Shown here one piece after another: positions 16,384-21,321 of a stretch of 33,073 bases of DNA. The notes below the pieces were generated by a model that searched no databases, was not told where the DNA came from, and saw nothing but the letters and a program-made list of their open reading frames with translations. Location: positions 53,243-86,315 of the forward strand of contig JBBDXD010000028.1 in NCBI GenBank assembly GCA_040902535.1, written 5' to 3'. Both the position numbers and the translations under genes were made by a program. This DNA comes from Dehalococcoidia bacterium. Lineage in GTDB: Bacteria; Chloroflexota; Dehalococcoidia; DSTF01; JACRBR01. Within the stretch, counting starts at the first letter, position 1. Every line of letters starts with the position of its first letter.

Positions 16384-17172
16384 TTATTCCATCGTCGACA
16401 GGAGCATGCGCGCTTCGATCGTGTCGTGACGCGGCGTCCGTGATTCGCGCATCAGCGGCGCGCCCGTAGCCGAGGCGTAATAGTCGTACACACACATCAT
16501 GTACAGGCGGCTCATCAGCGCCAGCCGCTGGAACCGCGGCGCGCCGCCCAGCGCGTGCCGCGAGAGCCCGACGCGCACCGTCCGCGCATCGAAGTCGACC
16601 GCTTCGATCGACTGCGGAAGCACGAGCACCGGCTTCTTGCCGATGAACAGTTCCACTTCAGCCTCGATGTGGCAGACCGCCCACGTCCCGTCATCGACGA
16701 CGAAGTCACGCACGCGGCCCGCCGCTCCTTCACGCGCGCACAGTCGATACGCGCGTACCGAGCGGACGCTCCGCAAGTGCGGGTCGGCGGCCATCACGCG
16801 CTGCGCTTCTTCGAGCAATTGGCGGTCGTCAGGCTGGATGCCGAGCTGGGCGCCCACCCGCCGCGATAGCGAAGCCCCATGTTGCAGGTCGCGCCGCTGT
16901 TCGCCGACGGTCAGCTGACTGCTGGCAGCGGTCCGCTCGCGGGCTTCCGCCCGCGTGAGCCATACGTGCAGGCGCGGGACTGTGCAGTCTGACTGTTGGA
17001 TGTCAGCGGGCTCGATGAGCACGTACGAACGGCGGAACGGCAATCCCACCTGCACCACGACGTAGCGCACACGCCAGTCCTGATCGTCAAAGTACAGGTC
17101 TTCGATCGTGCCGAGCCGCCCATCGCACGCGTCGATGGCCTGTCCGAGCAGCGCGCTTGCTTCACGAAGCAT
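16384..17172 (-). CDS. Tandem PRC-barrel domain protein
   Basis: A 262-residue soluble protein. Two PRC-barrel-like beta domains can be seen. The first, about 1-75, reads ASALLGQAIDACDGRLGTIEDLYFDDQDWRVRYVVVQVG. The second, about 132-210, reads SVRAYRLCAREGAAGRVRDFVVDDGTWAVCHIEAEVELF...VLVLPQSIEAVDF. PRC-barrels occur in the photosynthetic reaction centre H subunit and in the RNA-processing factor RimM; stand-alone tandem forms are common stress or surface-associated proteins of unknown ligand. GGGGAGG precedes the ATG. The spacer between domains (RTAASSQLTVGEQRRD) is encoded by a stretch resembling a decayed heptad repeat. The 291-base gap upstream (17173-17463) holds nothing I recognise. 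Confidence 0.8.
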   Translation of the reverse strand: MLREASALLGQAIDACDGRLGTIEDLYFDDQDWRVRYVVVQVGLPFRRSYVLIEPADIQQSDCTVPRLHVWLTRAEARERTAASSQLTVGEQRRDLQHGASLSRRVGAQLGIQPDDRQLLEEAQRVMAADPHLRSVRSVRAYRLCAREGAAGRVRDFVVDDGTWAVCHIEAEVELFIGKKPVLVLPQSIEAVDFDARTVRVGLSRHALGGAPRFQRLALMSRLYMMCVYDYYASATGAPLMRESRTPRHDTIEARMLLSTME

Positions 17173-17463
17173 CGTCGCCTCCCCGTGTCACTGGCGGATT
17201 CGCGAGGAGGAGCGCCGAGCACGGGATACCTGCCGGCTGTCACGGAATCCACCGCTTCCCACATGCCTGCGAGGCTAGCTGTCGGGGTCGGCCGGAGAAG
17301 TTGGCCTACTTGCTATGCGAGATGCACCCCATGGCAGTTGGTTCCCCGCCCCGCCGTGCGGCGAGTTCGGCAGGATCGGAGCGTACGCGGGCGTGGCGCG
17401 CAGCCGGCTAAACAACACAATGCGGGCATTGCAGATCGATTGCAGCAGCCGCGCTGTCCGGGA

Positions 17464-19091: not shown

Positions 19092-19832
19092 CTAATCGTC
19101 GTCGTCATCGTCTTCTTCGCCGGCGCCGGGGGCCGAGCGCGGCACCATGGCGATCGGGCGCTCTGGATCTTCTTTGCGGCGCGATCGCGGCGGCAGCGCA
19201 TCGACGAGCGTGCGAAGCTTCTCGATGCCGTCCGCGCTGTCCGTCGCGACGACGAGCACGTTCGTATCGCGCAGCGCCTGCAATTCCGACTGGGTGAGGT
19301 CCGCCGGGATCGACGCCATCAGCGGCTTGCGCGCCAGGCCAAACATGCGGCGCAACTCCATCTGCTTGCGGACGGTCATCGCGCCCTTGATCTCGCCGAC
19401 GTAGAGCGCGTCCAGACTGAAGCCCTCGATCGCGCGCAACTCGTTGTCGCTGACGTCGTTGGGCACGCTGATCACGTATCCGATGCCTTCTTCCAGCACG
19501 GCGGTCGATGCCGTCTTGTCCGGATCGAACAGCACGAAGTCGTAGCCGCCGTCCTTGCACGCCTTCGAGGCGCCGTCGCTGCGGCCGTCGAGCCACGCGC
19601 CCGGTATTGCGTCCGCGATCTGCTTCGCGTCATCGGCCCCCGCCGACGATCCGGCCGACCCGACGACCACGGCGTCAGCGCCGCGCTGGGCCATCTCGGC
19701 GGCCGCGCGTGCGTCCCGCGCCAGCCCGACGAGCACCATCGTGGCGTCGGCCGTGTTGCGCGTCGTCACAAACCCCATCGGCTGCGCCTCGAGGCGGGAG
19801 ACCCTGCGGATCCGGTCGGCGAACTTGCTCAC
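19092..19832 (-). CDS. Conserved protein of unknown function with polyaspartate tail
   Basis: A 246-residue protein. Alternating strands and helices (TMVLVGLARDARAAAEMAQRGADAVVVGS, YDFVLFDPDKTAST, IGYVISVPNDVSDNELRAIEGFSLDALYVGE, KPLMASIPADLTQSELQALRDTNVLVVATDSADGIEKLRTLVDAL) suggest a TIM-barrel or Rossmann-like alpha/beta fold. A charged linker follows and the protein ends GEEDDDDDDD. I do not recognise the family. GTG 19832 is chosen because GGAGGA lies five bases upstream. TATGAT at 19852-19857 is a possible -10 box. It is probably co-transcribed with the DUF1028 gene 29 bases downstream. Confidence 0.75.
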   Translation of the reverse strand: MSKFADRIRRVSRLEAQPMGFVTTRNTADATMVLVGLARDARAAAEMAQRGADAVVVGSAGSSAGADDAKQIADAIPGAWLDGRSDGASKACKDGGYDFVLFDPDKTASTAVLEEGIGYVISVPNDVSDNELRAIEGFSLDALYVGEIKGAMTVRKQMELRRMFGLARKPLMASIPADLTQSELQALRDTNVLVVATDSADGIEKLRTLVDALPPRSRRKEDPERPIAMVPRSAPGAGEEDDDDDD

Positions 19833-19851
19833 TTGGCTCCTCCGTGCGTCG

Positions 19852-19857
19852 ATCATA
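19852..19857 (-). promoter_or_regulatory. Candidate -10 box (TATGAT)
   Basis: TATGAT on the minus strand, about 20 bases before GTG 19832. No convincing -35 was found. Confidence 0.3.
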
Positions 19858-19892
19858 GCCAAGACTCGGCTCAGGCGCAGGGCTCGCCGTGA

Positions 19893-19964
19893 TCAGGTGA
19901 TGTCCCAACCGCGATCCTGGACGCGTTGTTCGATGTCCATCGCAGAGTGAAGGGCGCCCAACAT
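19893..19964 (-). CDS. Possible 23-residue ORF after the toxin gene
   Basis: ATG 19964 overlaps the toxin's TGA by one base (TGATG), and the frame runs MLGALHSAMDIEQRVQDRGW to a TGA at 19893-19895. The overlap would allow re-initiation, but there is no ribosome site or recognisable domain. It may be the tail of a lost gene. Confidence 0.2.
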   Translation of the reverse strand: MLGALHSAMDIEQRVQDRGWDIT

Positions 19965-20206
19965 CACAACGGGTCGGGGAGCACGCGATAGGCGAGCCGG
20001 TAGTTCTGAAAGATCAATTCGCGATAGGAATCGATGCCGATCTCCGGGATCACGCGGCCAGCGCTGGATGGTCGAGAAGATGCGTAGCCGCAGCTACGAT
20101 GCGAGCGACAAATCGAGAGGCAGAGGCGGAGGGAGTGCCGGCTGATGAACTCTGCGATGCTTGCGAGGTCTCGTTCGGCCTCTACGTGCCAGACGAGTTC
20201 AGCCAT
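19964..20206 (-). pseudogene. ParE/RelE-family toxin with two compensating frameshifts
   Basis: The open frame of 80 residues begins MAELVWHVEAERDLASIAEFISRHS and ends GRVIPEIGIDSYRELIFQNYRLAYRV, both typical of ParE/RelE mRNA interferase or gyrase toxins. The middle, LRLCLSICRSHRSCGYASSR, does not fit. The neighbouring frame over the same bases (about 20050-20135) reads SASASRFVARIVAAATHLLD then HPALA, exactly the expected helix. One base gained near 20125-20140 and one lost near 20050-20060 would explain this. The toxin core helix is therefore scrambled and the product probably inactive, unless these are assembly errors. It overlaps the antitoxin gene by 25 bases. Confidence 0.75.
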
Positions 20207-20382
20207 GTACCCAACCGGCGCCTGGCTTCCTCGTGACTTATCAGGTTCTCGCCCTGTTCAGCGTCCTGCCCGCGGCGTAACACGGTCAATTGGAAGTGGA
20301 GTTCACTAATGATGGTTTCCGTCGAAACGCCCCCGGGCAGCCGATCGATCAGATCGAGAGCCTGCTGCTTTTCGGTCTTCAT
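20182..20382 (-). CDS. Putative antitoxin of the ParE/RelE module
   Basis: A 66-residue protein: MKTEKQQALDLIDRLPGGVS, TETIISELHFQLTVLRRGQD, AEQGENLISHEEARRRLGTW. Small acidic helical proteins ending in an xxSHEExxRRLxxWL motif commonly precede ParE/RelE toxins and are taken as their antitoxins. The toxin ATG lies within its last codons (25-base overlap), the usual arrangement. The gene itself looks intact even though the toxin is frameshifted. A promoter with TAGAAT ends six bases before the ATG and no ribosome site is present, so the mRNA may be leaderless. In such systems the antitoxin normally represses its own promoter. Confidence 0.7.
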   Translation of the reverse strand: MKTEKQQALDLIDRLPGGVSTETIISELHFQLTVLRRGQDAEQGENLISHEEARRRLGTWLNSSGT

Positions 20383-20388
20383 GGCGCA

Positions 20389-20416
20389 ATTCTACCAATC
20401 GATGGCAGCCTGTAAC
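20389..20416 (-). promoter_or_regulatory. Promoter of the toxin-antitoxin operon
   Basis: On the minus strand GTTACA (20411-20416), 16 bases, TAGAAT (20389-20394), then only six bases to the antitoxin ATG. Confidence 0.55.
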
Positions 20417-20489
20417 ACTTCCGCGACCCTCGACGCGTAGGCTGTTCCGCCGTGGTTATCTGTGGCGGGCTAGTCTCACTTGGAACGGC

Positions 20490-20516
20490 GATAGCAGTGG
20501 CTCCCCCCTGACTATC
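20490..20516 (+). ncRNA. Leader hairpin upstream of the SRPBCC gene
   Basis: GATAG-CAG pairs with CTG-a-CTATC, an 8-bp stem with one bulged A and a 10-base C-rich loop. It is followed 10 bases later by the terminator hairpin. Together they look like a structured leader or a short terminated RNA. I compared it mentally with fluoride, ZTP and guanidine riboswitch consensuses and it fits none well. Confidence 0.35.
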
Positions 20517-20526
20517 TGCCGCTGAA

Positions 20527-20567
20527 GCGGGGTCTTCGCGATTCGTTGCGAAGCCCCGCGGTTTTTT
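20527..20567 (+). terminator. Intrinsic terminator 19 bases before the SRPBCC start codon
   Basis: GCGGGGtCTTCGC pairs with GCGAAGCCCCGC (20527-20559) and is followed by GG and TTTTTT (20562-20567) on the plus strand. The ribosome site AGGAGG (20575-20580) and ATG 20587 come directly after. No plus-strand gene lies upstream. It therefore probably acts as an attenuator for the SRPBCC gene or ends a small RNA; it could also block antisense transcription. Confidence 0.75.
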
Positions 20568-20586
20568 CGGACGCAGGAGGAATGTC

Positions 20587-21321
20587 ATGTCGAAGATGGA
20601 ACACGAAGTCGTCGTGCAGGCGCCGGCCGATACGGTCTACCAGGTGTGGCGCAACTTCGAGAACTTCCCCAACTTCATGAGCAACATCGAACAGGTGCAG
20701 GACATGGGCGACGGCCGCTCGCACTGGAAGGCCAAGGGCCCGTTGGGCGTCAACGCCGAATGGGACGCGGAGATCGTCGTCGACGAACCAGGACGCGCGA
20801 TCGCCTGGCGCTCACTCGAGGACGGCGCCAACGTACATACCGACGGCGCAGTGCGCTTCGAAGCGGCCGGCGATGCAACGCGCCTCTTCGTCACCATGAG
20901 CTACGACGCACCGGCGCACGGCCTGGGCGAGCTCGCGGCGAAGATCTTCGCCAACCCCGAGAAGCAGGTCGCAGCGGACCTGCGCCGGTTCAAGGAGATG
21001 ATCGAGACCGAGGGACAGGCGGGCTACCAGCGTTCGACGGAAGAGGTGGTCGGGCACGGCACGCCAAACACGACGATGCGCGTGAACCCGCAGTCCGGCA
21101 CGTCGCAGGACGACGATAACGCCGTGCAGGGCAAGTACCCGACATCCGCCGGCACGGCCGAGCCGCCGTATGGCCCCGGCATGTCGAATGACGAAACGGT
21201 GCGCGGCGCGCCGCGTCCCACCACGACAGGCACGCCCGGCGGCACGCTCGGTGCGCCCACCGAGCGCGATCTGAAGCGCGACCAGGGGTCGATCTCGGAG
21301 CGGACGGATACGCGCACGTAG
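20587..21321 (+). CDS. SRPBCC (polyketide cyclase/dehydrase-like) protein with disordered tail
   Basis: A 244-residue protein. Residues 1-150 form a START/Bet v1-like hydrophobic-cavity domain: EHEVVVQAPADTVYQVWRNFENFPNFMSNIEQVQDMGDGRSHWKAKGPLGVNAEWDAEIVVDEPGRAIAWRSLEDGANVHTDGAVRFE. This version is often linked to membrane or general stress proteins. The remaining 95 residues are low-complexity, rich in Gly, Thr, Pro and charged residues, probably unstructured. AGGAGG lies six bases before the ATG. The terminator just upstream implies control by read-through. No other gene is in the transcript; an inverted repeat GCGCCAA/TTGGCGC follows at 21323-21348. The 185-base gap after it is otherwise featureless. 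Confidence 0.85.
   Translation: MSKMEHEVVVQAPADTVYQVWRNFENFPNFMSNIEQVQDMGDGRSHWKAKGPLGVNAEWDAEIVVDEPGRAIAWRSLEDGANVHTDGAVRFEAAGDATRLFVTMSYDAPAHGLGELAAKIFANPEKQVAADLRRFKEMIETEGQAGYQRSTEEVVGHGTPNTTMRVNPQSGTSQDDDNAVQGKYPTSAGTAEPPYGPGMSNDETVRGAPRPTTTGTPGGTLGAPTERDLKRDQGSISERTDTRT

Follow-up and report, generated by a model that had tools for sequence, protein, structure and literature searches.

The question raised by this locus is whether the 204-nt gap between a minus-strand open reading frame (ORF) starting at 20382 and the ATG of an SRPBCC gene at 20587 holds a riboswitch or an attenuator, as a preliminary description of the DNA had proposed from its layout, or a terminated RNA of a different kind. 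The gap lies within a 33,073-nt stretch of DNA from a Dehalococcoidia bacterium, referred to as the window. On its plus strand, the gap contains hairpin P1, hairpin P2, an intrinsic terminator, the sequence AGGAGG and the SRPBCC ATG, in that order (cf. Table 1). The AGGAGG motif, correctly identified in that description as a ribosome binding site, is present 6 nt 5' of the ATG and 8 nt past the U-tract, while 19 nt separate the end of the U-tract from the ATG. The absence of an upstream plus-strand gene likewise holds by a crude gene caller, which places the closest upstream end of a plus-strand gene 12,175 nt away and calls only opposite-strand genes in between. On the other hand, the term "stress-type" that had been attached to the SRPBCC gene was not substantiated, as Pfam gave only Polyketide_cyc and Polyketide_cyc2, and the NCBIfam models searched gave no match to the protein. 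The 66-aa ORF on the left border of the gap had no match in Pfam or NCBIfam either, and it is called antitoxin-like because of its position upstream of a short ParE-like ORF. The latter has a frameshifted appearance by inspection.

Table 1. Positions of the features discussed in the text (numbering of the window)
Feature	Position	Strand	Details	Basis
PRC-barrel gene	16384-17172	-	downstream of the RF00379 riboswitch	
Short ParE-like ORF	19964-20206	-	80 aa; ParE_toxin 24.3 bits, cut-off 23	Pfam
Divergent antitoxin-like ORF	20182-20382	-	66 aa; left border of the gap	ORF list
Sigma-70-like promoter of the divergent ORF	20389-20416	-	GTTACA / 16 nt / TAGAAT with TG	
Hairpin P1	20437-20479	+	18 bp with a bulge and a 1x1 internal loop; 4-nt loop	fold
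Hairpin P2	20486-20521	+	apical part with CUCCCCCC at 20501-20508	fold
Intrinsic terminator stem-loop	20527-20559	+	14 bp; bulged T 20533; loop 20542-20545 (4 nt)	fold
Terminator U-tract	20562-20567	+	TTTTTT	sequence
Ribosome binding site	20575-20580	+	AGGAGG	sequence
SRPBCC gene	20587-21321	+	244 aa; Polyketide_cyc PF03364 (E 4.1e-14), Polyketide_cyc2 PF10604 (E 5.7e-10)	Pfam

The strong terminator that had been placed at 20527-20567 proved to be real: its 14-bp stem has an energy of -23.7 kcal/mol and is followed by six U residues, and the piece spanning 20522-20574 had a z of -3.31, with 0.2% of 1000 dinucleotide shuffles being as stable. A simple scan of the 1.6-kb region, which scored only a shortened form of the terminator (20545-20562), found one site versus 0.7 expected in shuffles and thus, taken alone, places it at chance level. 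Under a strict definition that was set post hoc (at least 9 bp, -18 kcal/mol or lower, and a tract starting with TTTTT and having at least 6 T in 7), the terminator was the sole match on both strands of 524,438 bases (contigs C28 and C18 of the own genome), whereas 40 shuffles of the 524 kb yielded 0.175 matches on average, and 0.05 at -23 kcal/mol or lower. A looser definition returned 13 sites in the 524 kb, compared with 4-7 in five shuffles. For eight of these sites, a same-strand gene ends 47-173 nt upstream, and for a ninth the distance is 339 nt; the others are the terminator of the SRPBCC leader and three sites that likewise follow an opposite-strand gene, one of these three being a bidirectional terminator seen from its reverse face. 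As a separate observation, an intrinsic terminator on the minus strand of contig C18 of genome G000 (position 116195, locus L116) has an opposite-strand gene upstream and is located 159 nt before a same-strand start, with no Rfam matches near it. The divergent ORF itself contains a second, weaker terminator-like site of -15.3 kcal/mol, whose T-run is at 20369. According to the study by Naville and Gautheret (2010, PMC2965389), 5' regulatory terminators have means of -16.5 kcal/mol and 7.0 bp, and 3'-end terminators of -20.2 kcal/mol and 7.6 bp, and the lower stability of the former agrees, in the authors' view, with structures that need alternative folds. Judged by these values, the terminator of the SRPBCC leader exceeds both means in strength and resembles 3'-end terminators more closely than 5' regulatory ones.

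The bulged hairpin previously noted at 20490-20516 is real as well (-8.5 kcal/mol when folded alone) and forms the inner part of the longer stem of P2, whereas P1 was absent from the preliminary description. In comparison with 1000 dinucleotide shuffles each, the P1 piece (20436-20480) had a z of -3.5 and the 46-nt P2 piece (20481-20526) a z of -2.86, with 0.9% of the shuffles as stable as the latter. For P1 and P2 taken together, z was -2.48, and values of -2.5 or lower occurred in 2.9% of 726 tiles. All three structures form together in the fold of 20436-20574, and the segment 20440-20575 had a z of -3.39 (1/200 shuffles equally good). The plain energies were less distinctive, being matched by 6% of 45-nt tiles for the P1 piece, by 35% of 51-nt tiles for the P2 piece, and by 25% of 91-nt window tiles, or 5% of GC-matched ones, for P1 and P2 together, while 20480-20600 as a whole reached a z of only -1.54 (13/200 shuffles equally good). 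The figure of 25% for the 91-nt tiles and the z of -1.54, along with the results of the simple scan and the looser definition, are what one would cite in favor of functionless chance hairpins followed by a chance T-run. However, we consider such an origin extremely improbable in view of the expectation under the strict definition, post hoc as it is, both in the 524 kb overall and at such stability.

The lack of a match to any known aptamer, stated in the preliminary description, was borne out by the Rfam scan it had proposed as a check: at the gathering threshold, nothing was found at the leader in a scan of the whole window, and there were no matches at E≤10 within 20380-20640. In the literature on "riboswitch" and "SRPBCC", no leader of this kind was apparent from titles and the starts of abstracts. 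The leader DNA was then compared with other genomes, none of which is of the same genus, and a leader that arose recently might therefore escape detection. In 60 genomes of relatives, 393 of the class and 400 of the phylum (own genome included in each set), only the coding part of the gene (contig C2 of the own genome and contig C1 of G003) or short chance matches were retrieved; the 392 other genomes of the class gave only chance-level stretches of 17-36 nt (47 genomes at E≤0.1, best 0.0016), 399 other genomes of the phylum gave no match at E≤0.001, and there was none in plasmids and phages. No second copy of the leader was found in the own genome, and a repeated element was rejected on this ground. 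A search for the structure was performed with R1, a single-sequence covariance model (an alignment of the window sequence and its copy in the genome) whose E-values are rough. Besides its own locus, the model picked up two sites in 393 class genomes, one in G272 (E 9.2e-4 per genome, with some 0.4 expected over 393) and one in G008 (0.053), and, with laxer filters in 18 genomes of the order, also a site on contig C10 of G003 (0.0027, about 0.05 expected over 18). The match in G003 is located inside an opposite-strand 365-aa ORF, has several broken pairs and adopts a different fold on its own; that in G272 keeps P1 with a similar loop, has six broken pairs and lacks P2; and in G008 a 51-nt stretch replaces most of P2. 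The match in G272, a P1-like hairpin at 158-234 of locus L072 (contig C12), shares CGTGGTTATC at the loop. All three are treated as chance matches, with some reserve as to the P1 likeness in G272.

Two other kinds of known element were tried and rejected. For 6S RNA, RF00013 was unmatched at the leader and, at E≤0.001, elsewhere in the own genome, with 5 of 14 control genomes matching this family, four of them above the cut-off. For an integron attC site, the plus strand of 19800-20600 contains no GTTRRRY, and RYYYAAC has just two occurrences, at 19956 and 20209, neither of which borders the hairpins; these core motifs are reverse complements of each other, so both strands were covered. Of the proposal of a riboswitch or attenuator layout, the part that stands is the arrangement, with an orientation and distances that agree with the published filters for 5' premature terminators (PMC2965389), whereas its riboswitch part is left with neither an Rfam match nor a homologous leader in the genomes searched. 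The riboswitch reading is thus not supported beyond the layout.

The relatives of the gene were also inspected for a similar arrangement. The nearest of them are 50-59% identical in protein, with N-termini that align by eye, and none comes from the same genus among the genomes searched. A terminator-like hairpin was detected in none of the 31 leaders of relatives in the own and class genomes (up to 220 nt each), a set in which the leaders of L077 (N-masked) and L083 (28 nt) are too incomplete for a test and two starts, those of L077 and L078, are doubtful. Applied to 12 named, more distant loci with approximate starts, this detector flagged two, namely L023 and L026. The hairpin of L023 is trivial (-4.8 kcal/mol), and the one of L026, on a Rubrobacter contig, has -17.3 kcal/mol and only four T in a row and is situated some 88 nt before the gene start, which is approximate (2995). 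As a side observation, the word GCAAC was found in 13 of 29 leaders, where shuffles predict 4.7, and TGTTAC in five of the 29, where they predict 0.3, both figures being uncorrected for the number of words tested. The 29 leaders are 32 rows minus two short or masked ones and one near-duplicate, and they include the leader of the window. By eye, the positions of both words are scattered. The SRPBCC family may use GCAAC as a promoter element; the word is missing, by eye, from the plus strand of the window's leader.

A regulated attenuator, in which P1 and P2 would bind a protein or a metabolite, or a leader ORF would stall, thereby changing termination ahead of the SRPBCC gene, requires a competing fold. 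The arrangement is favorable to it. The published filters for 5' premature terminators (PMC2965389) are the same orientation as the gene, a distance of at most 300 nt to the first codon and a shorter distance to this codon than to the upstream gene. Here the U-tract ends at 20567, 19 nt from the ATG, and about 145 nt lie between the terminator and the divergent ORF, which starts at 20382. Two structured hairpins precede the terminator, and attenuators evolve fast, many of them having no conserved features, according to the same study. When the 3' arm of the terminator was barred from pairing, the energy changed from -75.6 to -57.3, a cost of 18 kcal/mol, and the best fold paired 20469-20483 with 20523-20539 around P2. 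In transcripts starting at 20384 and ending at 20539 or 20545, this candidate antiterminator had pair probabilities of 0.4-0.7. However, 60% of shuffles of the 5' flank gave a pairing as good as this one, and its probability dropped to 0-0.12 when the RNA started at 20436. Furthermore, the duplexes between the leader and the terminator arms (-18.6 and -18.0 kcal/mol) were at the level of 300 single-base shuffles (means -18.2 and -18.7; 41% and 58% as good), and in full-length RNA the terminator pair 20530-20556 had a probability of 1.0 in 5/5 contexts folded. Nothing therefore singles out a switch among the folds computed. A leader-peptide attenuator was rejected, since the 19-codon GTG ORF at 20452-20511 has no Shine-Dalgarno sequence; by eye, it contains no codon run except two terminal Pro. 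A leader that sequesters the Shine-Dalgarno sequence was rejected as well, the mean probability of pairing of this sequence being 0.37-0.69 in five leader contexts versus 0.54 without the leader. Taken with the absence of an Rfam match and of a similar hairpin in the 31 relatives, these results make a regulated attenuator rather unlikely in our view.

Promoters were scored with sigma-70 weights. The promoter assigned to the divergent ORF scored 13.9, compared with 7.8 or less in 90% of the 228 blocks (290 nt each). The start predicted from it falls on the ATG at 20382, and a leaderless mRNA would be expected. For the plus strand, no sigma-70-like promoter was recognized in the gap, the best score being 5.2 versus a median best of 5.0 for 290-nt blocks. 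The top-scoring plus-strand candidate of the region (6.5) uses the U-tract as its -35 element and would start inside the gene. A start between the terminator and the ATG, which had been named beforehand as the result that would speak against the proposed leader, found no sigma-70-like support: among -10 candidates for such a start, TTTTTT scored 5.1 and other six-mers at most 0.6. The same scores bear on the possibility of a separate SRPBCC promoter that overlaps the terminator and starts transcription between 20567 and 20575, the terminator serving merely as an insulator. Such a promoter is in keeping with the ribosome site and ATG that directly follow the terminator, and the enrichment of GCAAC in relatives' leaders hints at a non-sigma-70 promoter of the family. 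Nevertheless, apart from the U-tract, the -10 six-mers are poor, the leader would measure only about 20 nt or less, and GCAAC is not seen on the plus strand here, and we regard this explanation as improbable.

The neighborhood offers a further explanation, namely that a toxin-antitoxin locus is decaying upstream and that the terminator is a relic of a lost element or gene, now exapted and dampening the SRPBCC gene. The ParE-like ORF is short, passes its Pfam cut-off narrowly and looks frameshifted, and the ORFs adjoining the SRPBCC gene differ, by eye and without alignment, among the own locus, contig C1 of G003, contig C59 of G004 and the paralogue on contig C2 of the own genome. Mobile-element terminators exapted upstream of genes are also described (PMC2965389). 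By contrast, the leader has no second copy in the own genome and no match in plasmids or phages, so that no mobile element was identified. Moreover, the toxin-antitoxin genes run in the opposite direction, and the stem is intact. We hold this origin to be unlikely.

Our preferred, still tentative explanation is that the leader encodes a short lineage-specific RNA ended by the terminator, and that the SRPBCC gene is expressed by leftover read-through at a mostly fixed level, with no ligand aptamer involved. Since only opposite-strand genes were called upstream for 12 kb, the transcript begins in the gap or is antisense to those genes. Transcription would start somewhere between 20383 and 20436 in the divergent gap, possibly at an alternative-sigma promoter, and an RNA of roughly 130-180 nt would fold into P1, P2 and the terminator. 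RNA polymerase would mostly stop at the U-tract near 20567, and the short RNA would presumably accumulate. The fraction reading through would serve as the SRPBCC mRNA, using the ribosome site 8 nt further, and its level would vary little, or would follow the general conditions of termination rather than a ligand-binding aptamer. This explanation is supported by the following observations: (i) such a terminator is rare, albeit by a post hoc definition (1 in 524 kb versus 0.175 expected), (ii) its energy and stem length lie on the 3'-terminator side of the published means (PMC2965389), (iii) P1, P2 and the terminator are each more stable than nearly all of their own shuffles, and (iv) the leader is no more complementary to the terminator arms than its shuffles are. 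Against it stand the failure to recognize a sigma-70-like plus-strand promoter in the gap, the alternative pairing with the 5' arm of the terminator that is predicted in unfinished transcripts from 20384, and the absence of a relative of the RNA from the genomes searched, which leaves selection on the RNA unsupported. On sequence grounds, a free small RNA (sRNA) and a mere terminated leader would fit these measurements alike. A more elaborate version, which we find very unlikely, is a lineage-specific dual RNA, whose terminated form would be a trans-acting sRNA pairing with Shine-Dalgarno sequences through the C-rich P2 loop CUCCCCCC, and whose read-through form would be the SRPBCC mRNA. C-rich loops of such a kind occur in other bacterial sRNAs. 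If the dual RNA were true, read-through would set both the sRNA and the gene dose.

Among the closest known systems, stand-alone bacterial sRNAs have reportedly been predicted from orphan terminators. The SRPBCC leader shares with them a gap in which no same-strand gene was called upstream and hairpins ahead of the terminator, but it differs in having no recognized promoter, no homologue and a gene that starts 19 nt past the U-tract. With terminator riboswitches, it shares a structured leader placed before a gene. One example, the c-di-AMP riboswitch RF00379, was matched in the window itself at 17248-17382 on the minus strand, upstream of the PRC-barrel gene, with 69.2 bits (gathering cut-off 38), whereas the Rfam search of the SRPBCC leader returned no family at E≤10. 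Six RF00379 matches above the cut-off are present in the own genome, and no literature pairing "c-di-AMP riboswitch" with "PRC-barrel" was found. If real, the SRPBCC leader adds one uncharacterized premature terminator or sRNA, without detectable homologues, in 524 kb of examined DNA where clear intrinsic terminators are scarce. No new sensor is indicated, and the useful result is a negative one, the layout being all that speaks for a riboswitch. Also among the closest systems are the candidate attenuators that Naville and Gautheret (2010, PMC2965389) described. In common with these, the leader has a terminator oriented with the gene, 19 nt from the ATG and closer to it than to the upstream ORF, but its stem is longer and more stable than that of the mean 5' terminator, it has no antiterminator above chance, and it recurs in 0/31 leaders of relatives. 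Because no known class was matched and no antiterminator rose above chance, we do not file the SRPBCC leader as a riboswitch but regard it as a candidate 5' premature terminator of a known arrangement.
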